From Olivibacter jilunii (lineage in GTDB: Bacteria; Bacteroidota; Bacteroidia; Sphingobacteriales; Sphingobacteriaceae): DNA of 64,000 bases. Numbering within the stretch: position 1 is the stretch's first letter; each line of letters opens with the position of its first letter. The notes beneath the pieces were generated by a model, which made no database searches, was not told the origin of the DNA, and was given only the letters and a program-made list of their open reading frames with translations. The stretch is from the NCBI RefSeq assembly GCF_900607235.1, contig NZ_LR027852.1, forward strand, positions 434,001 to 498,000, read 5' to 3'. Position numbers and translations under genes: made by a program. Positions 52,806 to 62,677 of this stretch are shown here, piece by piece.

Positions 52806-53426
52806 ATGACTTCTAATTTACCTAAACATGTTACCATAGATGCTTTCGTATTAGCGGGCGGGCAGAGCTCCAGAATGGGAGAAGATAAGGGGTTGATACC
52901 GCTGAATGGCAAAGCTATGGTGTCCTATATTATCCAAACGCTGCAAAAAGCAAGGCTATCGGTAAAGTTAATCGCTAATCATGCTGCTTATCGAAATTTC
53001 AGCCTTCCTGTATATGGTGACGTGGTCATTAATAAGGGGCCGATGGGTGGTTTGCTAACCGCTTTGGAGAATACCTCGGCAGATTTGGTACTTTTAGTAG
53101 GGTGCGATATGCCGCTTATATCAGTTGAAGCAATAGCATACTTAATCTCATCCATTGATCGTGAGCATTTAATTGTTTCCATGATTAATAATAAACCCAA
53201 TCCCTTATTTTCATTATATCCGAGTAGTTTAAAAACTGCGGTCAGAGAACATGTTATGGCGGATCAATTGAAGATGACCGATTTCATCCTAAATAATAAA
53301 ACAACCCTATGTAAAACTTTTCCTGGACACATGAGTGGGTGTTTTCAAAATATAAACGATAAAGCAGCGCTGCTTGCGTTAGAAACAAATTGGGAGAAAG
53401 CAAAACTTGATATCCTGAAATTTTGA
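52806..53426 (+). CDS. mobA: Molybdenum cofactor guanylyltransferase
   Basis: Attaches GMP to molybdopterin to make the guanine dinucleotide form of the cofactor used by DMSO-reductase-family enzymes such as nitrate reductases. The GTP-binding signature AGGQSSRMGEDKGLIPLNGK is at residues 16-35. LVGCDMPLISVEAI gives the Mg-binding Asp, and the C-terminal FQNINDKAAL resembles the family's FxNINTPED motif with the final residues changed. 206 residues, normal length. It fits with the molybdopterin oxidoreductase gene at 60458, which needs this form of cofactor, although other genes lie between them. A 295-base AT-rich gap without a gene follows (53427-53721). Confidence 0.93.
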   Translation: MTSNLPKHVTIDAFVLAGGQSSRMGEDKGLIPLNGKAMVSYIIQTLQKARLSVKLIANHAAYRNFSLPVYGDVVINKGPMGGLLTALENTSADLVLLVGCDMPLISVEAIAYLISSIDREHLIVSMINNKPNPLFSLYPSSLKTAVREHVMADQLKMTDFILNNKTTLCKTFPGHMSGCFQNINDKAALLALETNWEKAKLDILKF

Positions 53427-53689: not shown

Positions 53690-53697
53690 TAAGTTTG
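53690..53697 (+). promoter_or_regulatory. -7 box (TAAGTTTG) of the five-gene operon
   Basis: Exact TAnnTTTG match, 24 bases before the ATG of the nucleotidyltransferase gene. No other such box is evident between the five genes, in keeping with one transcript. Confidence 0.5.
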
Positions 53698-53721: not shown

Positions 53722-54426
53722 ATGGATTTTGCAATAATTGCTGCAGGTGAGGGCTCTCGTTTAGCGAAAAGCGGTTATCCTTATCCAAAGCCTTTGGCTA
53801 GGTTAAATGGCATACCCTTGATAGAGCGCTTGATCACTACTTTTGTAGCTCATGGCGCCGATACAATCCATATCATCGTTAACGAAGAATCAACGGAGCT
53901 GGCTGAATCGTTGCATTCAAATCGCGAGAATACGCAAATACGGGTTGTGCAGAAAAGCACGCCAAGCTCGCTGCACAGCTTTTACGAATTACTAAAGGAA
54001 GTACCGAATATAGAAGAGTTATGCGCAACTACGGTAGATACGATCTTTAAAGAGGAAGAATTTGGCGCTTATTTAGAGGAATTTAGGCGCAATACCTCAT
54101 TGGATGCTTTAATGGCAGTTACCCCATTTGTAGAGGATGAGAGTCCTTTATATGTGAGAACGAATGCAAGTGGTGATGTAATGGCCTTTACTGACAAAAA
54201 CGAGGACAGCACGAAGATACTTGTATCTGGCGGGATTTATGCCTTGCGGCGAAAGGCTTTAGCTTGTGTGCCTAAGGCAATTGACAATAATATTGAACGT
54301 ATGCGCAATTTTCAGCGCCTACTATTAGAAGAGCACTTAAACGTGAAGGCATTTACCTTTGATAAAATAATAGATATTGATCATTTAGCGGATTTACAAT
54401 TGGCTGAAACATGGTTAAATGATTAA
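53722..54426 (+). CDS. Sugar-phosphate-type nucleotidyltransferase
   Basis: 234-residue NTP_transferase (GT-A-like) fold that would join a nucleotide to a phosphorylated alcohol or sugar. The N-terminal signature IIAAGEGSRLAKSGYPYPKP is close to the GxGxRL...PKP motif of nucleotidyltransferases; LCATTVDTIFKEEEF supplies the metal-binding Asp; and VSGGIYALRRKAL is the strand near the sugar site. The protein is short, with no C-terminal hexapeptide repeat. Because a CDP-alcohol phosphotransferase is encoded in the same operon, a cytidylyltransferase producing the CDP-activated headgroup is the simplest proposal, as in inositol-phosphate cytidylyltransferases; this is inference. Confidence 0.85.
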   Translation: MDFAIIAAGEGSRLAKSGYPYPKPLARLNGIPLIERLITTFVAHGADTIHIIVNEESTELAESLHSNRENTQIRVVQKSTPSSLHSFYELLKEVPNIEELCATTVDTIFKEEEFGAYLEEFRRNTSLDALMAVTPFVEDESPLYVRTNASGDVMAFTDKNEDSTKILVSGGIYALRRKALACVPKAIDNNIERMRNFQRLLLEEHLNVKAFTFDKIIDIDHLADLQLAETWLND

Positions 54427-54447
54427 AAATATCTCAATAAATAAGAA

Positions 54448-55344
54448 GTGAAAAATATTAAAATATTAGGCGTTCGACGAGGAAGGACCTTTTCTCCAAA
54501 CCACATAGGAAATGACGAAGCTATTTTTTTGTTAAGTGTAGAGGCATTAAAAAAAGAAGGATACGATGTTCATATCTACACCGAGGAAGAGTTTCTTCAG
54601 GATGAGACGATTGCTGCTGATACATATATCGTTTCGATGGCTCGTGAGAAAGCTGTTGTAAAGAAGCTACAAGATTTAGAAGAGAAAGGAGCTTGTGTAG
54701 TCAATTCAGCTTTTGGAGTGGAGCATTGTTTTCGGACGAATATGACTAACCTACTGTTAGAAAATAAGATTCCCTACCCGAAGAGTATTATTGTGTCGAC
54801 TGATTGTCGCGATGAGCGCTTATTTAACGAGTTCCCACAACCGGGGGTCTGGATCAAACGTGGCGATTTTCATGCCATCCATAAAGAAGATGTTACTTTT
54901 GTTTCCTCAAGGGAAGAAGGTTTGGAAATTTTGAGGGAATATGCATTAAGAGGAATTCCCGATGCTGTTATCTCGAAACATTTGGCCGGTGATTTAGTGA
55001 AATTTTATGGCGTTAGAGGAACCGACTTTTTCTTTTGGTTTTACCCCTATGAACATAATCACCATAAATACGCGCATTACGAACAGATAAATAGTAAACT
55101 GGTATATAACCCCTTTGATGAGAATAAGTTGAAACAAATAGCGCTGGATGCAGCGGCCGTTCTTAATGTACACATCTTTGGTGGAGATGCAATCATTGAT
55201 CCACAGGGAAATATCATAGTCATCGATTTAAATGATTGGCCCAGTTTTGCTCCTTGCCGGGAACAGGCTGCGTCTGCTATAGCCCAACTTTTAACAAATA
55301 TCTTCCAGAAACAGTTAGATGGAATCATTGCAAGTGAAAAATAA
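54448..55344 (+). CDS. ATP-grasp-fold ligase or kinase of unknown substrate
   Basis: 298 residues beginning with GTG. The N-terminal domain (about 1-95) includes VRRGRTFSPNHIGNDEAIFL, and the central/C-terminal ATP-grasp region shows GVWIKRGDFHAIH (ATP-binding Lys), VISKHLAGDLVKFYGVRG (hinge and ribose contacts) and IFGGDAIIDPQGNIIVIDLND (metal-binding Asp/Asn). The fold either ligates an acid to an amine or phosphorylates an alcohol (as in inositol-polyphosphate kinases). A possible role is to modify or phosphorylate the headgroup before activation; not proven. It lies 21 bases after the nucleotidyltransferase gene, and its end overlaps the CDP-alcohol phosphotransferase gene by 26 bases. 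Confidence 0.78.
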   Translation: MKNIKILGVRRGRTFSPNHIGNDEAIFLLSVEALKKEGYDVHIYTEEEFLQDETIAADTYIVSMAREKAVVKKLQDLEEKGACVVNSAFGVEHCFRTNMTNLLLENKIPYPKSIIVSTDCRDERLFNEFPQPGVWIKRGDFHAIHKEDVTFVSSREEGLEILREYALRGIPDAVISKHLAGDLVKFYGVRGTDFFFWFYPYEHNHHKYAHYEQINSKLVYNPFDENKLKQIALDAAAVLNVHIFGGDAIIDPQGNIIVIDLNDWPSFAPCREQAASAIAQLLTNIFQKQLDGIIASEK

Positions 55345-56263
55345 AAAGCAAGAGAATAAAGACATTTTTGAGAGTTCATTAAAATCTAATGATACCGAAG
55401 AAAAAATAGATATCTATTTTTATCGGCCTATAGGACTTCAAATCGCTTTTTTCTGCCAAAAAGTAGGTTTAACACCAAATGCTGTAACTATTATCAGTAT
55501 CTTTTTTGGGGTAGCGGCGGGTATCCTTTTCTATTATCCTTCGCTAACTATTAATGTGGTTGGCATGTTACTTTTAATGTTCGCAAACTCACTGGATAGC
55601 GCCGACGGACAGTTGGCGCGTCTCACGAACAATAAGAGTAGATTTGGCAGGATTCTTGACGGTTTCGCAGGCGATTTCTGGTTTGCTTCTATCCATATCG
55701 CGATATGCCTCCGGGCTATGAATGAAGGTTGGTCTGCTGCTGTTTGGATTTTCGGTATCCTCGCGGGTGTATCTCACTTGGTTCAATCGGCCATGGCAGA
55801 TTATTATAGAAATGTGCATCTTTTTTTTATAAAAGGGACTAACGGAAGTGAATTAGATAACAGCAAAGATTTGCAGGAAGAGTATGATCAGATGAGCTGG
55901 TCTAAACAGGCATGGACTAAGTTTGTTTCCAGAGGGTATTTGAACTATACCAAAATGCAGGAACGTTTCTCTCCCAACTTACAAAAGCTGTTAGGTATTA
56001 TCCGTAGCGACTTTAAAGAGGGCTTACCTGCAAAACTAATTCATGATTTTCGGCAAATGAATAAGCCACTGATGAAGTACACGAACATTGTACAATTCAA
56101 TACCCGTGTTATTTTTCTTTTCTTGTGGCTCTTTATTGATTATGCTTGGATTTACTTCTTTTTCGATTTGTTTGTCCTGAATCCTATTTTGATCTATATG
56201 TGCAACCGGCAGGAAAAAGTAAGTGCACATTTTTATGAGCGCATTAATGAATATAAAGCGTAA
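55319..56263 (+). CDS. CDP-alcohol phosphatidyltransferase-family membrane enzyme
   Basis: Inner-membrane enzyme expected to displace CMP from a CDP-activated lipid or alcohol to form a phosphodiester. Residues about 45-130 hold the family motif: DSADGQLARLTNNKSRFG followed by RILDGFAGDFW. The first three Asp and AR are canonical, but the last Asp is four residues after the third (D-G-F-A-G-D) rather than the usual three, a spacing change at a metal site. A long N-terminal cytoplasmic stretch and hydrophobic helices flank it. The start overlaps the preceding gene by 26 bases; the next gene begins on the next base after the stop. Its substrate is unknown. Confidence 0.88.
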   Translation: MESLQVKNKKQENKDIFESSLKSNDTEEKIDIYFYRPIGLQIAFFCQKVGLTPNAVTIISIFFGVAAGILFYYPSLTINVVGMLLLMFANSLDSADGQLARLTNNKSRFGRILDGFAGDFWFASIHIAICLRAMNEGWSAAVWIFGILAGVSHLVQSAMADYYRNVHLFFIKGTNGSELDNSKDLQEEYDQMSWSKQAWTKFVSRGYLNYTKMQERFSPNLQKLLGIIRSDFKEGLPAKLIHDFRQMNKPLMKYTNIVQFNTRVIFLFLWLFIDYAWIYFFFDLFVLNPILIYMCNRQEKVSAHFYERINEYKA

Positions 56264-57304
56264 ATGGCTAGCAAAGTTTACAAGATACTTTTCTTTGTTA
56301 TAGGTATTGCAACCCTATGCTACATGGTATACGCACTGGGGGTGGATGTCATTTGGGATAATATAAAAAAGACAGGCTGGTGGTTTTTACCCGTCATCGG
56401 TAGTTGGCTTCTTATATACATATTGAATGCCATCGCTTTTAAAGCGATTATTCAAGAACCCCGAATCCCGGCAAGTAATCTTTCCTTTGCATCAGTACTA
56501 AAGCTGACAATTAGTGGCTATGCCATTAACTATATTACACCTTTTGTTGCGTTGGGTGGTGAACCTTATCGTATTATGGAATTGAAACCGCGACTGGGAA
56601 TTCAAAAAGCGAGCTCGTCTGTTTTGTTATATAGTTTAATGCACATGTTCTCTCATGTGTTGTTCTGGCTGGCGTCCATTATATTAATCCTGATTTATGT
56701 TCCTATCAATGCCATTATGGTAATCGGATGTTCCGTCATGTTCATCACGGGCGTTGTTTTGTGTTATTGGTTCGGACGGGTTTATAAAAAAGGATTTACC
56801 TTAAGTACTTTTAAGGTATTAGCCAAAGTCCCTGGCTTGAAGCGTAAGGTGGGCGACTTTGTTGCCGAAAAACACGATAGCCTTAAAGAAATTGATAACC
56901 AGATTACAGAATTATACGCACAGAGAAGAGAACGTTTTTTCAAATCATTAGCCTTTGAATTTATCGCCAGAGTAGTCGGTTGTCTCGAGATTTTTTGTAC
57001 AGCGAAAGCGATAGGCTTGAATATGAGTATAGTGCAGTCCCTTATTATTAGTTCAGGTTCATCTTTATTTGCCAACCTTATCTTCTTCTTTCCGATGCAA
57101 TTGGGTACTAGAGAGGGAGGGCTGGCCTTAGCACTGAAAAGTGTGGGGATGCCTGCATCGGCCGGGATTTTCATTGGTATTATTATGCGTATCCGCGAAG
57201 TCGTTTGGATTATTATCGGATTGGCACTCATGCGTATATCTAAAACCAACACCGAAGCGAACGAAACATTGGAAGAGATTAACAATAACATCAATATTCA
57301 GTAA
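56264..57304 (+). CDS. Lysylphosphatidylglycerol synthase/UPF0104-type integral membrane protein
   Basis: 346-residue polytopic protein with about eight hydrophobic helices matching the flippase-like membrane domain of MprF and UPF0104 proteins: YKILFFVIGIATLCYMVYAL, the TISGYAINYITPFVALGGEPYR block, and FFPMQLGTREGGLALALKSV. It has no C-terminal aminoacyl-transferase domain. Such free-standing domains are often beside lipid or polyprenyl-glycan genes and are proposed to flip lipids. Its start directly follows the CDP-alcohol phosphotransferase stop, so it may translocate that enzyme's product across the inner membrane (inference). Confidence 0.87.
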   Translation: MASKVYKILFFVIGIATLCYMVYALGVDVIWDNIKKTGWWFLPVIGSWLLIYILNAIAFKAIIQEPRIPASNLSFASVLKLTISGYAINYITPFVALGGEPYRIMELKPRLGIQKASSSVLLYSLMHMFSHVLFWLASIILILIYVPINAIMVIGCSVMFITGVVLCYWFGRVYKKGFTLSTFKVLAKVPGLKRKVGDFVAEKHDSLKEIDNQITELYAQRRERFFKSLAFEFIARVVGCLEIFCTAKAIGLNMSIVQSLIISSGSSLFANLIFFFPMQLGTREGGLALALKSVGMPASAGIFIGIIMRIREVVWIIIGLALMRISKTNTEANETLEEINNNINIQ

Positions 57305-57306
57305 AT

Positions 57307-58026
57307 ATGATTAAAGGCTTATTATTTGATTACGGTGGAACAATCGATACGAACGGTCGGCATTGGGCAAATGTGATTTGGGGGGCGTATCAGGCCGCGG
57401 GTGTTGAAACAAGCTTTGAACAATTTATGGAGGCTTATACCTTTGGCGAAAAATCGTTGGCTATTCATCCGATTATTAAGCCGCACCATATTTTCAGTGA
57501 GGTGTTACATTTAAAAACTCAGCAACAATTTTCTTACCTTAAATTGGCAGAGGGTGAGTACTCAAAAATAGAAAAAATCGTTAGCCACTGCATGAAGTTA
57601 GTTCTTACGACGGTAACAGAGGCTAAGAGAACACTCGACTTATTAGCTGAAACATATCCGATGGTGTTGGTGTCTAACTTTTATGGAAACATCCAGTCGG
57701 TATTGGCCGATTTTGGGTTAGCTGACTATTTTAGTGACATTGTGGAATCAGCTATAGTTGGGGTACGCAAACCTAATCCGGCGATTTATCAGCTCGGAGT
57801 GGACCGAATCGGTTTAAATTCAGCAGAATGTGTTGTTATAGGCGATTCTTTCAAAAAGGATATTATTCCTGCTAAGGAAGTTGGCTGTAAAACCATTTGG
57901 CTTAATGTCGACGGCATTCAAGAGGACCTCTCGGTTGTTGGAAATGAGTTTGCTGATGTGCAAATTACCGATTTTGCTCAGCTTCCCGAGGCTCTTCAAA
58001 ACATAAATACACAATTTGTTATATAA
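57307..58026 (+). CDS. HAD-superfamily protein with altered first motif
   Basis: 239 residues of the HAD fold. Motif I is LLFDYGGTIDTNG: the nucleophile Asp8 is present, but the usual second Asp (DxD) is Gly. Motif II is VLVSNFYGN, motif III includes Lys in VGVRKPNPAIYQ, and motif IV is VVIGDSFKKDIIPAKE. The DYGGT form occurs in a subset of HAD proteins; without the acid/base Asp, phosphatase activity may be weak or another reaction may be used. It starts 2 bases after the membrane-protein stop and is the last gene of the five-gene operon, where a headgroup-phosphate phosphatase would fit. Confidence 0.87.
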   Translation: MIKGLLFDYGGTIDTNGRHWANVIWGAYQAAGVETSFEQFMEAYTFGEKSLAIHPIIKPHHIFSEVLHLKTQQQFSYLKLAEGEYSKIEKIVSHCMKLVLTTVTEAKRTLDLLAETYPMVLVSNFYGNIQSVLADFGLADYFSDIVESAIVGVRKPNPAIYQLGVDRIGLNSAECVVIGDSFKKDIIPAKEVGCKTIWLNVDGIQEDLSVVGNEFADVQITDFAQLPEALQNINTQFVI

Positions 58027-58223: not shown

Positions 58224-59285
58224 ATGATAGAAAGCTTGATTAAGCAAAAGATTAGAAATTTATTGCCAGGCTATTTTGCAATGGTTATGGCGACGGGTAT
58301 CATTTCAATTGCTTCGCTTTTAGTTGGTTTCGGCGTCTTAGCTTGGTTACTATTCTATTTCAACATTTGTTTTTTTTTCGCTTTATTTTGGTTATTCATT
58401 TATCGGATTCTATATTATCGTGCTGAAGTGTGGCAAGACTTTAAGAGCTATCAAAGAGGCCCCGGCTTTTTTACTATCATAGCAGCCTTGTGTATTATGG
58501 GAAATCAGCTTATCTTGTTTTATCAAGCTTTTACGCTCGCTGGCATAGTACTTTTATTGGCCTTACTCATTTGGCTATTGATAGGTTATGGGTTCTTTTT
58601 CCATATAACAGTAACGGAAGAGAAAAAGCCGCTAAAAGAAGGAATTAATGGTACATGGCTCGTATTCATTGTGGCTATACAAGCCTTATCCGTACTTATT
58701 TCTTTTATTGCCAAGGAATTAGGAGAACTAAGCTATGTTGGTTTGTTTATAGCTTTATGTTTCTTTTTGTTGGGATGTGTCTTTTATCTCTACATCATGT
58801 CTCTCATTATATATCGTCTGTCTTTCTTTTCTTTACATGCCACTGAATTTGGTGCTCCATACTGGATCAACATGGGGGCAACAGCCATTTCGACGCTGGC
58901 AGGATCCATGCTTATTCTGCACGCAGGTGATTTTGCCTTTCTGTCTCAGATTCTTCCCTTTTTAAAAGGCTTTACGTTATTCTATTGGGCTGCAGGTACT
59001 TGGTGGATACCCTTATTATTGTTATTGGGTTTTTGGCGACATGCGATCAAGCGCGTGCCCGTTCCGACCAGTGCAAAGGGTTATGATCCTACCTATTGGG
59101 CTATGGTTTTTCCATTGGGTATGTATACGGTTTGTACGTATCGATTAAGTGAGGCCTTATCTATTACATTTCTTAAATTCATTCCAGCTGCCTTTATATA
59201 TGTAGCATTATTTGCTTGGGTTGCCGTCGCATTAGGATTTATCAGGTATCTATTGTCTCTTGTTCAAAAAGAAACACAAACATAA
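58224..59285 (+). CDS. TDT/SLAC1-family membrane transporter or anion channel
   Basis: 353 residues with ten predicted helices, matching the tellurite-resistance/dicarboxylate transporter family that includes TehA and plant SLAC1. Features: [21 protein letters not shown] at the first helix (the PGxFxxVMxTG motif), a [19 protein letters not shown] helix, and WALVFPLGMY-like [20 protein letters not shown] near the C-terminus. Plant SLAC1 carries nitrate and chloride; fungal and bacterial members carry dicarboxylates or sulfite. Because nitrate-reductase-like genes follow in the same direction, nitrate or nitrite passage is one option (inference). Confidence 0.88.
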
Positions 59286-59385
59286 AGTGGTTTAAATCAG
59301 TCACAAAGCAAACAATTACCGGAAAGGATTGTTAAACGGGAGGTGACGTTTGAGTGAAGCGAATCATTTCATATTTACTTAAATT

Positions 59386-60441
59386 ATGTATAAACTCTTC
59401 CAAACCTTAAATCGTCGTGCTTTTGTTAAAGCGTTATTAATGACGATTTTAGTGATCGTTTTCGTTTGGGTCGGGTCGCGCAAGCTTCAAAATTTTGATC
59501 CGGCACTAATAGCTTATTTAACGGGTACCATCTTTGCTGTTTTTGGAACGACCTATCGGTATGCGGTCTGGACTCAGCGGCCACCTACAAAACTTTATTG
59601 GCGTAGAAGTGTTGGATTTCTCTTCAGCGTACATTTTTTTCCTTACTTATGGAACTCCATCCGATTGTTTTTTCGAAATATTCTTTTTCAACGATTTATA
59701 GCTTATCGGAGTAAAACTAGATGGTTTGGTCATTTTCTACTGTCGAGTGGCTGTTTGATGGCCTTTGCCATTACAATACCACTTACCTTTGGGTGGATAC
59801 ATTTTGAACTAAAGCCAGGCGATGACACGACCTATCATGCGATGCTGTTCGGTTTTGAGGCAGGAACGTTCAGCCTGGGATCTCCTTTAGCTTTTATCGC
59901 CTTTCACTGTTTGGTGTGGTGCTCTGTCTTGGTTACTATTGGTGCAGTGATTATGATGAAGCGCCGATTTACAAATGGTGGATTAATTGCTACGCAAACT
60001 TTTGATGATGATTTATTGCCGTTGATTTTGTTGATCGCCATTTCGGTTACGGGATTAGGAATTTCTTATGATTATACGTTTTTAGAGGGTAAAACATACC
60101 AGTTTATGGCCGTTACACATGCGATAACGGTCATATTATTTTTGCTGTGGCTACCTTTTGGAAAATTCTTTCACATTTATCAGCGTTTCGCGCAATTGGG
60201 CGCTAACTTATATAAAATTGAAGGGAGGCGGCGAGGAATGGCTGTATGCCCACATACTAAAAAAGAATTCGCATCGAAAACACATATCGAAGATTTGAAA
60301 AAGGTAACACAAGAGCTCGGATTTGACTTCAGCAAGCCCGATGGTTCAAGTCATCTTGATTTGAGTCCTGAAGGTAAACGCGCCGCTTTAGCAAGAGCGC
60401 ATTTTCAAGTGAGAAAGGAATCAGGAAGCTTCTTTGGTTAA
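59386..60441 (+). CDS. NarI-like cytochrome b membrane subunit (putative quinol dehydrogenase)
   Basis: 351 residues with about six hydrophobic helices and a cytoplasmic C-terminus of about 80 residues. The helix VTHAITVILFLLWLPFGKFFH has His245 and His263 exactly 18 residues apart, the same spacing as the two heme-b ligands in the last helix of NarI of nitrate reductase. Other membrane His residues (His116, His139, His151, His174) could supply the opposite ligands. A diheme quinol-oxidising subunit is therefore likely. It ends 16 bases before the molybdopterin subunit gene, in one operon. Similarity is by pattern only, and the protein could be labelled simply as a membrane protein by automated methods. 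Confidence 0.7.
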   Translation: MYKLFQTLNRRAFVKALLMTILVIVFVWVGSRKLQNFDPALIAYLTGTIFAVFGTTYRYAVWTQRPPTKLYWRRSVGFLFSVHFFPYLWNSIRLFFRNILFQRFIAYRSKTRWFGHFLLSSGCLMAFAITIPLTFGWIHFELKPGDDTTYHAMLFGFEAGTFSLGSPLAFIAFHCLVWCSVLVTIGAVIMMKRRFTNGGLIATQTFDDDLLPLILLIAISVTGLGISYDYTFLEGKTYQFMAVTHAITVILFLLWLPFGKFFHIYQRFAQLGANLYKIEGRRRGMAVCPHTKKEFASKTHIEDLKKVTQELGFDFSKPDGSSHLDLSPEGKRAALARAHFQVRKESGSFFG

Positions 60442-60457
60442 TTAAGAGATAAGGTAA

Positions 60458-62677
60458 ATGGCAACACTCCCTACAACAATTGATGAGATAATCGCCCAAT
60501 TCGGCCCGCACAAAGCATATGCTCCCCAAGCCGGTTTTTACGGCTCTCACGAGCCTGACAGCCTGGTGAAGACCCATTGCTGTTATTGCGGCATGCAATG
60601 TGGTATTCAATTAAAAGTGAAAGAAAATAAAGTAGTTGGATTTGAACCTTGGATGGAGTTCCCGTTTAACGAAGGACGTTTGTGTCCAAAAGGGGTAGAG
60701 CGTTATCTTCAGAATAACCATCCGGATAGATTACTAGCCCCTTTAAAACGAGTGGAGGGAAAGGGCTTTCAACAGGTGTCTTGGGACTATGCGATGGATA
60801 AAACCGTGGGAGAAATCAAACGCATACAGGAAGCCTATGGTAACAACGCATTCGCTATGTTAAGCGGTGTTTCGCTGACAAACGAAAAAAGCTATATGAT
60901 TGGCAAATTTGCCCGGGTAGCTCTAAAAACTGCTAATTTGGATTATAACGGTAGGCTTTGTATGGTGAGCGCGGGAGCCGGCAATAAGAAAGCGTTCGGA
61001 TTGGATCGAAGCTCCAATAGCTGGGCTGACCTAGCACATGCGGAAGTTATCATTGTGGCGGGGGCCAATATCAGCGAAACCTTTCCTACATTGACCCATT
61101 ATATTTGGCGTGCGCGGGGTAATGGTGCCAAATTGATCGTTGTAGATCCGCGTATTATACCCTTGGCACGTACGGCCGATTTACATTTAAATGTAATACC
61201 AGGAGGAGACTCTGCTCTTTTTGGAGCAATGCTTAAGATATTGGTTGACAATGATTGGCTCGATCACGAATTTATTGCCAATTATACAAGCGGTTTTCAG
61301 GAAGCAATAAATGCCGTAAGGGATTATGACTTGGACTGGGCGGAAAAGTATACGGGCGTAGCTAAAGAGAAAATCTTTGAAGCGGCACGCCTTTGGGGGA
61401 AGGCGAAGACTAGCTTTTTGCTTCATGCTCGCGGAATTGAACATCACACAAAGGGGGTAGATAATGTATTGAGTTGTATTAACCTGGTATTGGCAACGGG
61501 ACGTATAGGTAAGCCTTATTGCGGTTATGGCACGATTACTGGCCAGGGTAACGGTCAAGGTGGACGGGAACACGGACACAAATGTGATCAGCTGCCAGGC
61601 AACCGTGATATTACCAACCCGGAACATCGTCAATACATCGCTGACGTGTGGGGAATCAGCGAACAGGAGTTGCCTGGTAAGGGGTTAACCGCCTATGAGC
61701 AAATAGAAGCTATTCATCGTGGCGAAATTAAGGGACTGATTTCTATTTGTTTTAATCCATTGGTGTCGTTGCCTAATAATAATTACGTGCGAGAAGCTTT
61801 GGAGAAACTGGAGTTCTATATGTGTATCGATAGTTTTCTGAGTGAAACAGCCCGATATGCCGATATTATTATGGCGGGGTCTCTGCATGAAGAAGAAGAA
61901 GGAACCGTTACAACTGCGGAAGGACGGGTGGTAAAGATTAATGCAGCGGTGACTCCTCCAAAAAATGCTAGAAAAGATGGCGAGATTTTAATGGAATTAG
62001 CGGGGAGACTGAATGAAGGAGATAAATTTAGTTTTGACTCCAGTGAGGCAATTTTTAATGAATTAAGATTGGCTTCAAAGGGAGGGACTGCTGACTATTT
62101 TGGCATTACTTACGAGAAAGTAGTGAATAACATGGGGGTATTTTGGCCATGCCCTTCATTAGACCATCCGGGAACACCAAGATTATGGGAAGATAGGAAA
62201 TTTAAAACACCGGACGGAAAGGCCCATTTCAATGCAGTTAGTTTTAAACCGCCATCAGAAGTGATCGATACGGATTACCCGGTGGTGTTGACAACCGGTC
62301 GGGTGGTGTCGCAATACTTAAGCGGTACCTCTACTCGACGGATCGGGAAGTTGGTAGATCAATATCCCGAGCCACTTTTGGAAATACATCCCGAACTGGC
62401 GCGCCGCTATAATATTAGGAGTGGAGATATTATTCGCGTAAAAACACGAAGGGGTGAGGCCGAATTTCCGGCTCAAGTGGTAGAGACGATTCGGAAAGAT
62501 ACTGTATTTATTCCCTACCATTGGGGAGGCAAGCACGCTGCAAATCAGCTAACGATTGGAAATCTTGACCCCATTTCGAAGATACCGGAGTTTAAGGTTT
62601 GTGCCTGTCAGCTTATTCCAACCGGTGAGGTAGCATCTGAAAAAGTAAAAGAAACGGCTTATCAGAGTCATTTATGA
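60458..62677 (+). CDS. Molybdopterin oxidoreductase, assimilatory nitrate-reductase-like catalytic subunit
   Basis: 739-residue DMSO-reductase-family enzyme, closest in pattern to NarB/NasA nitrate reductases. An N-terminal [4Fe-4S] site is formed by Cys41, Cys44, Cys48 and Cys76. [12 protein letters not shown] holds the likely Mo ligand Cys168. The [20 protein letters not shown] block is characteristic of NarB-type enzymes. A dinucleotide-binding C-terminal domain covers about 600-730 ([20 protein letters not shown]). No twin-arginine signal is present, so it should act in the cytoplasm. The partners are unusual for an assimilatory enzyme: a NarI-like cytochrome, a four-cluster ferredoxin and a Rieske protein. 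Reduction of nitrate is likely; other oxyanions are possible. Confidence 0.88.

Follow-up and report, generated by a model that had tools for sequence, protein, structure and literature searches.

A candidate CDP-inositol lipid operon with an ATP-grasp enzyme in Olivibacter jilunii and its relatives

Many Bacteroidota, among them Prevotella, are predicted to produce their inositol sphingolipids by a CDP-inositol route. An 'alternative' inositol-lipid cluster was put forward by Heaver et al. (2022, PMC9246714), in which an NTP transferase, a CDP-alcohol phosphotransferase (CDP-AP) and a HAD protein are encoded near the inositol-phosphate synthase (MIPS); they gave exceptions to this vicinity, such as P. 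copri, and a passage of the paper notes moderate homology in Sphingobacteria. The cluster is present in B. vulgatus and P. veroralis, in which phosphoinositol (PI)-dihydroceramide is made (PMC9246714), and the route, repeated in a passage of a 2023 review, is called unconfirmed in both publications. The term 'ATP-grasp' does not occur in the main text of Heaver et al., and open-access literature searches, mostly at listing level, turned up no paper in which an ATP-grasp protein is named as part of the cluster.

Here, we analyse a window (the whole stretch of DNA under study, 64,000 nucleotides of contig NZ_LR027852.1) from the 6.7 Mb, 21-contig genome of Olivibacter jilunii, in which an ATP-grasp gene lies inside a related operon. 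Five adjacent genes on the + strand (positions 53722-58026), read from the open reading frames (ORFs), encode in order a nucleotidyltransferase (NT, 53722-54426, 234 amino acids, aa), predicted to be a CTP:inositol-phosphate cytidylyltransferase; an ATP-grasp enzyme (GRASP, 54448-55344, 298 aa, GTG start), a predicted inositol-phosphate kinase; a CDP-AP (CDPAP, 55319-56263, 314 aa) in which Gly replaces the fourth signature Asp; an LPG_synthase_TM/HpnL-like membrane protein, a putative lipid flippase (FLIP, 56264-57304); and a haloacid-dehalogenase-type protein (HAD, 57307-58026) whose motif I reads DYGGT. The five genes, their fold labels and their spacings of 21, -26, 0 and 2 bases, all given in an earlier note on this DNA, were exact in the ORF coordinates, the folds being borne out by Pfam for four proteins and by a structural model for GRASP.

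That note took the operon for an undescribed pathway. A CDP-alcohol headgroup, probably of a lipid and probably of inositol type, stands; 'undescribed' does not, in view of the 2022 prediction. We regard the operon as probably a Kennedy-type inositol-lipid pathway, likely the Sphingobacteriaceae form of the 'alternative' cluster and the counterpart, in a soil bacterium, of a pathway predicted for gut bacteria, with a kinase role as the leading option for GRASP. New here are the association of GRASP with the cluster, the loss of the fourth Asp (D4) of CDPAP, the loss of an Asp in motif I of HAD, and expansions of the operon by MlaEFD, aminotransferase and IolG-like genes. Together, the co-travel of GRASP, the loss of the presumed CDP-AP base and the sphingolipid loci turn a vague prediction into a few enzyme assays.

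Conservation of the operon and its linkage to MIPS and sphingolipid genes

Co-occurrence was measured in 300 genomes of the order and 355 of the phylum, which provide the unbiased figures for GRASP and CDPAP (36/36 and 14/17, respectively). In addition, a scan of GTDB species genomes through the ATP-grasp protein gave at least 558 matches, the best 80 of which, the named loci, thus always hold GRASP; the two sets overlap in some genomes (L161/G169, L113/G484). Within the order, GRASP was found in 36 genomes and the identical 36 have a close CDPAP; within the phylum, it was found in 14 genomes, all among the 17 having a CDPAP match at E 1e-80 or better, leaving G639, G328 and G430 with a close CDPAP and no GRASP. 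Conservation of the five-gene order, the check proposed in the earlier note, was observed in all 26 long stretches available from the 36 GRASP genomes of the order and in 58 of the 80 named loci, with the NT-GRASP-CDPAP order in 79 (L178 is rearranged); this kept order rules out a chance gene cluster. No FLIP match was found in 19 named loci, which are Bacteroidales-labelled records and one metagenome-assembled genome labelled Clostridium, and two further loci are cut off. Bacteroidales loci of equal gene order match the NT, GRASP, CDPAP and HAD of the window at about 36-55%. GRASP thus commonly belongs to the cluster (36/36 in the order, 14/17 in the phylum), and the ATP-grasp step, although indeed the puzzling part of the operon, does not set it apart as had been thought.

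The supposed absence of an inositol-phosphate synthase did not survive the comparison. MIPS lies within the locus in 45 of the 80 named relatives, from several families (27 upstream of NT, 18 downstream), and within about 5 kb of the operon in 28 of the 36 GRASP genomes of the order. All 36 have a MIPS, versus 163/300 genomes overall (hypergeometric 4e-11, kinship ignored), as do 13 of the 14 GRASP genomes of the phylum, versus 54/355 overall. By coordinates and E-values, the remaining eight genomes of the order, this one included, have a lower-scoring MIPS type that is present also in operon-less genomes (e.g. G011, G244 and G245). No MIPS was found nearby in seven long stretches from these eight (the window, L040, L045, L047, L049, L057 and L065); three MIPS positions on other contigs are listed among them, with no position for G283. 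The MIPS of O. jilunii lies on another contig (G000:C4:132226; 9088-10287 of stretch L036), with no recognised lipid gene nearby. Its closest family is mycothiol INO1 (1.2e-88, below cut-off), for which the operon-adjacent type reaches only 1.6e-6. Mycothiol INO1 is an actinobacterial type of MIPS.

Sphingolipid genes were sought with proteins of loci resembling that of B. thetaiotaomicron (BT) in other Sphingobacteriaceae (L096, L098 and L099). The serine palmitoyltransferase (SPT) query exceeds the NCBIfam serine palmitoyltransferase cut-off (746.9 of 640 bits) and the PIPSynBT1523 query its own; the labels PgpA, GtrA, PAP2, FA_hydroxylase and GNAT were borne out by Pfam, as were epimerase, DUF5686/CarboxypepD and DUF4833 on L208. 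SPT homologues occur in 33 of the 80 named loci (30 Spirosomataceae and 3 Parapedobacter), in the order, whole or in part, SPT-GNAT-epimerase-CarboxypepD, the five genes NT-GRASP-CDPAP-FLIP-HAD, then DUF4833-hydroxylase. In the three Parapedobacter loci, MIPS stands within the same run as the SPT-type genes and the operon. The SPT homologue of O. jilunii itself, 73% identical, lies on a further contig (C6:195479), next to GNAT, CarboxypepD, hydroxylase, GtrA and DUF4833 genes and a distinct CDP-AP gene; the pathway in this genome would therefore spread over three contigs.

Elsewhere in the phylum, two families (f17 and f35) hold expanded forms of the operon. Of the 18 stretches fetched from them, seven (L194-L197, L199, L202 and L203) read NT-MlaE-MlaF-MlaD-GRASP-aminotransferase-CDPAP-GFO/IDH-FLIP-HAD-MIPS, with two tandem GRASP genes in L194-L197; L200 is devoid of the Mla genes, and L204 of the aminotransferase and dehydrogenase. 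Pfam identified MlaE, ABC_tran, MlaD, Aminotran_3 (a class III aminotransferase) and GFO_IDH_MocA on L195. Among NCBIfam families, the IolG-like dehydrogenase comes closest to inositol 2-dehydrogenase (6.4e-19, below cut-off); for the aminotransferase there are many family matches, and none of the 25 listed is above cut-off. The presence of MlaEFD within these operons fits a lipid product, and the expanded forms may make an amino-inositol variant of it.

The predicted pathway and the role of the ATP-grasp enzyme

Read from the observed gene identities, order, conservation, linkages and motif changes, every substrate and reaction that follows is a prediction. The end product would most likely be a phosphoinositol (sphingo)lipid, formed from CDP-inositol by a Kennedy-type route. 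MIPS, encoded here on another contig, would make inositol 3-phosphate; NT would join an inositol phosphate and CTP into CDP-inositol; CDPAP would move phosphoinositol onto a lipid hydroxyl, probably that of dihydroceramide (or diacylglycerol); and FLIP would bring the resulting lipid across the inner membrane. GRASP is best taken for an ITPK-type kinase, with inositol, inositol phosphate or CDP-inositol as candidate substrates, and HAD would most likely work on a phosphorylated intermediate or product. That the operon serves an inositol-type lipid appears highly probable to us, and a sphingolipid acceptor is favoured with some reserve. The FLIP assignment follows Pfam (LPG_synthase_TM, PF03706 1.3e-29) and an HpnL match (3.1e-27, below cut-off). 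Several observations weigh against this reading, and they are given below with the alternatives that they favour.

The first set concerns GRASP, which has no Pfam match above cut-off (RimK 0.019) and matches the NCBIfam rimK_fam below cut-off (2.6e-7, 30.3 of 143.4 bits). Its AlphaFold model (pLDDT 88.7) aligns with ArgX over nearly its whole length (Z 21.8, root-mean-square deviation 2.8, 257 residues). Because of the rimK_fam match and of this nearly full-length alignment with ATP-grasp enzymes, the ATP-grasp label is right. RimK/ArgX-type ligases rank first by fold, with tied Z scores (ArgX 21.8, RimK 21.6, LysX 21.4), followed by carbamoyl-phosphate synthetase and D-Ala ligases at Z 20-21. 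No ITPK appears among the 50 matches listed from each of Foldseek and VIA, which does not exclude ITPKs. Among 48 GRASP members, rimK_fam, below cut-off, matches 45, no Pfam family is reached at 0.01 and no ITPK family is among the NCBIfam matches, the ITPK content of that library being unchecked. GRASP could thus be a carboxylate ligase that couples amino acids or other acids to the headgroup (or to an amino-headgroup), yielding an acylated lipid flipped as by MprF. The FLIP family (PF03706) is the MprF-type transmembrane domain, and in eight of the distant operons, four of them with tandem GRASP genes, an additional aminotransferase and dehydrogenase could be the source of an amine.

We nevertheless hold the ligase to be rather unlikely, and an ITPK-type kinase, though itself a tentative assignment, to be the better option. 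The rimK_fam cut-off is far off, and no aminotransferase accompanies GRASP in L198, in L204 or, within about 8 kb, in any of the 80 named loci. The metal site reads D/DxN in 125 of 125 GRASP copies, with Asp and not Glu as second ligand; a K-R-G-D-x-H-A-x-H loop is kept in 122 of them. This census, like that of CDPAP, pooled the named and other sets, tandem copies included; of the 80 named loci, 47 entered alignment A2, 34 alignment A3 and 31 alignment A4, L161 being omitted from A4 owing to an internal stop. Counting membrane helices roughly by hydropathy returned too few segments to be of use. As a general rule, RimK, LysX and ArgX ligases have Glu in an ExN metal motif. In profile alignments, ITPKs show DxN and ArgX ExN (ELN); of six RimK-family matches in the O. 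jilunii genome, two have EVN, and the other four (one just above cut-off, three below) gave no motif by the pattern used. When a 48-row GRASP profile was compared with PDB sequences, the best match, with a weak E-value, was the ITPK 1z2n (3.7e-4), followed by ArgX (0.0066), AtITPK4 (0.04) and human ITPK1 (0.07). By comparison with ITPK sequence, one His of the conserved loop is presumably the nucleotide-contacting His of ITPKs. Such a His is described for these kinases in a passage of PMC7614388. The usual presence of GRASP suggests that a three-gene reconstitution of the route may be incomplete.

Alcohol, lost catalytic residues and acceptor

The activated alcohol could be other than inositol, for instance glycerol, glycerate or another polyol phosphate, with MIPS serving a separate step. 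Among 16 chosen named operon genomes, 14 of which we picked since MIPS was not in their locus, eight (three Runella, two Larkinella, one Rhabdobacter and two Dyadobacter) showed no MIPS by PF01658, a search that did detect MIPS in the other eight and in 6 of 14 control genomes; the same eight showed none with the O. jilunii MIPS protein as query, a search run without positive control. G484 also has no MIPS, and is not independent, being the same genome as Runella L113. In such species, the headgroup may be either imported inositol or not inositol. NT does not settle the substrate: it is an NTP_transf_3 protein (PF12804 3.4e-13) that matches the NCBIfam bifunctional inositol-1-phosphate cytidylyltransferase at 2.6e-7, below cut-off, sugar families ranking first, and its model (pLDDT 92.9) gives tied VIA Z scores for GlmU (25.2), PntC (25.0) and the inositol-1-phosphate CTP transferase 4jd0 (24.4), so that the modelled structure fails to separate sugar, phosphonate and inositol substrates. 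The invariant R13, K23 and D106 of NT are spaced like, and may be equivalent to, the active-site R16, K26 and D112 of inositol-1-phosphate cytidylyltransferase, as given in a passage of PMC12275187; the Caulobacter sphingolipid cytidylyltransferase described there, whose top structural match is 4jd0, uses phosphoglycerate. Against a non-inositol alcohol stand the co-location of MIPS with the operon in 45/80 loci over several families and its presence in 36/36 genomes of the order, and we consider it improbable. An ordinary NDP-sugar operon, which NT alone does not exclude, is likewise rejected, on the linkage to MIPS and sphingolipid genes.

CDPAP (CDP-OH_P_transf, PF01066 1.5e-11) is closest to archaeal and bacterial inositol-type CDP-APs and AF2299, followed by choline/ethanolamine phosphotransferases: its profile reaches AF2299 (6.2e-10) and CEPT1 (1.1e-5) in the PDB. 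Its NCBIfam score for PIPSynBT1523 is 31.9 bits, against a cut-off of 350. The eight-residue CDP-AP signature, D1xxD2GxxAR...GxxxD3xxxD4, is described in a passage of PMC4634129, where D4 is the likely base and its change to Asn nearly abolishes activity; a passage of PMC6506517 concurs on the base. The first seven positions are kept in CDPAP, and D4, the proposed base, is Gly in 32/32 aligned sequences and in 121/121 readable copies from GRASP loci. Of the 25 relatives whose stretch has no GRASP, 24 retain Asp; the exception, L205, has Gly, no ATP-grasp or NT match in its 10-kb stretch and no ATP-grasp match genome-wide. The residue after D4 varies (106 Asp, 13 Asn, one Ser and one Glu) and is thus not a strict substitute. 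In a tree of 56 of the 146 rows, with long-branch warnings, the Gly-bearing copies form one clade (support 97/92), hence a single event and not 121; the p values ignore kinship. The CDP-AP gene is in two pieces in L062 (G238, same family), the second unreadable at the motif, and has an internal stop in Olivibacter sitiensis (L161/L057); in both, the matches of the flanking genes still cover the greater part of each gene.

HAD (Hydrolase, PF00702 2.3e-16) also lacks a signature residue. Its motif I reads DYGGT in 68 of 77 sequences, DYGAT in four and DFGGT in one, four giving another or no pattern match; the second Asp used by phosphatases is missing, and the motif departs from DxDx[T/V]. Such a loss need not abolish HAD activity, according to a passage of PMC7614388. 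For want of this Asp, dephosphorylation by HAD, as in the pathway of the earlier note, is doubtful.

Both losses could belong to a phosphate relay to inositol lipids, which we judge quite improbable. GRASP would phosphorylate the inositol 3-phosphate from MIPS a second time, perhaps on position 1 to form inositol 1,3-bisphosphate; NT would activate one phosphate; the base-less CDPAP would use the leftover ring phosphate as base, by substrate-assisted catalysis; and HAD would finally strip the remaining ring phosphate. Such a ring phosphate would explain the loss of D4 in the GRASP-carrying clade, and, if the relay were true, the usual 1D-1 linkage would result, not the mirror-image 3-linkage. 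In the distant relatives, MlaEFD would export a lipid whose ring had been further converted to an amino-inositol.

As to the acceptor, the sphingolipid preferred above is challenged by the second CDP-AP on contig C6 (4424-5179 of L039, 251 aa, PF01066 2.2e-6, no NCBIfam match at 1e-5), which has D4, lies by a fatty-acid hydroxylase and GtrA, and could make the sphingolipid headgroup instead. A soluble acceptor, giving a di-inositol-phosphate-like solute, would agree with the NT and CDPAP logic of the DIPP pathway and with their weak matches to the bifunctional DIPP enzyme family (and of CDPAP to 4mnd), but is very improbable given FLIP, the embedding in sphingolipid loci (33/80), the MlaEFD neighbours and a CDPAP profile that reaches the lipid-acceptor enzymes CEPT1/CHPT1 before 4mnd.

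Around the operon, a 295-base gap follows a MobA-like gene at 52806-53426 (PF12804 4.3e-29). A weak candidate Bacteroidota -7 promoter box, TAAGTTTG, is present on the + strand at 53690-53697 and would be the promoter box of the earlier note; with 3 matches in the window versus 3.5 expected, it is not above chance and is no evidence by itself, which leaves that box unsupported. Downstream, after a 197-base gap, positions 58224-62677 encode a TDT-family-like transporter (NCBIfam match below cut-off) and a protein resembling assimilatory nitrate reductase (NasC, 833.8 of 1100 bits, likewise below cut-off).

Comparison with known systems

The closest system is the alternative cluster of Bacteroides vulgatus and Prevotella (BVU_RS13095/13105/13115), which by the paper's description has the NTP transferase, CDP-AP and HAD in the same order, near MIPS and with an LPG-synthase-like gene in the vicinity, whereas the MIPS of O. 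jilunii is on another contig. Tag numbers are skipped in such a way that each interval has space for a single gene, and an ATP-grasp and a FLIP gene might occupy these places.

The BT_1521-BT_1527 cluster of B. thetaiotaomicron shares the end-product class, an inositol sphingolipid, and, according to Heaver et al., LPG-synthase-like and carboxypeptidase-regulatory-like neighbours. It differs in using CDP-diacylglycerol and inositol phosphate, a PgpA-type phosphatase and an AUR1-like transferase; these two enzymes and PIP synthase gave no tblastn match in the window or in the 10-kb C6 stretch, the parts of this genome that were searched for them. Other Sphingobacteriaceae genera carry this type of cluster, whole or in part (L096, L098-L104; families checked on L096, L098 and L099), and no ATP-grasp match was found in their genomes.

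ITPK kinases share with GRASP the ATP-grasp fold, the D and DxN-x-x-P-[SG]-[FY] metal motif and the best PDB profile match; they differ in that this E-value is weak and that the GRASP fold ranks RimK/ArgX first. Finally, the DIPP/archaetidylinositol phosphate pathway (IPCT-DIPPS) shares the cytidylyltransferase and CDP-AP logic, with weak matches, whereas the operon of O. jilunii has an additional ATP-grasp enzyme, FLIP and HAD, and a lipid-locus context.

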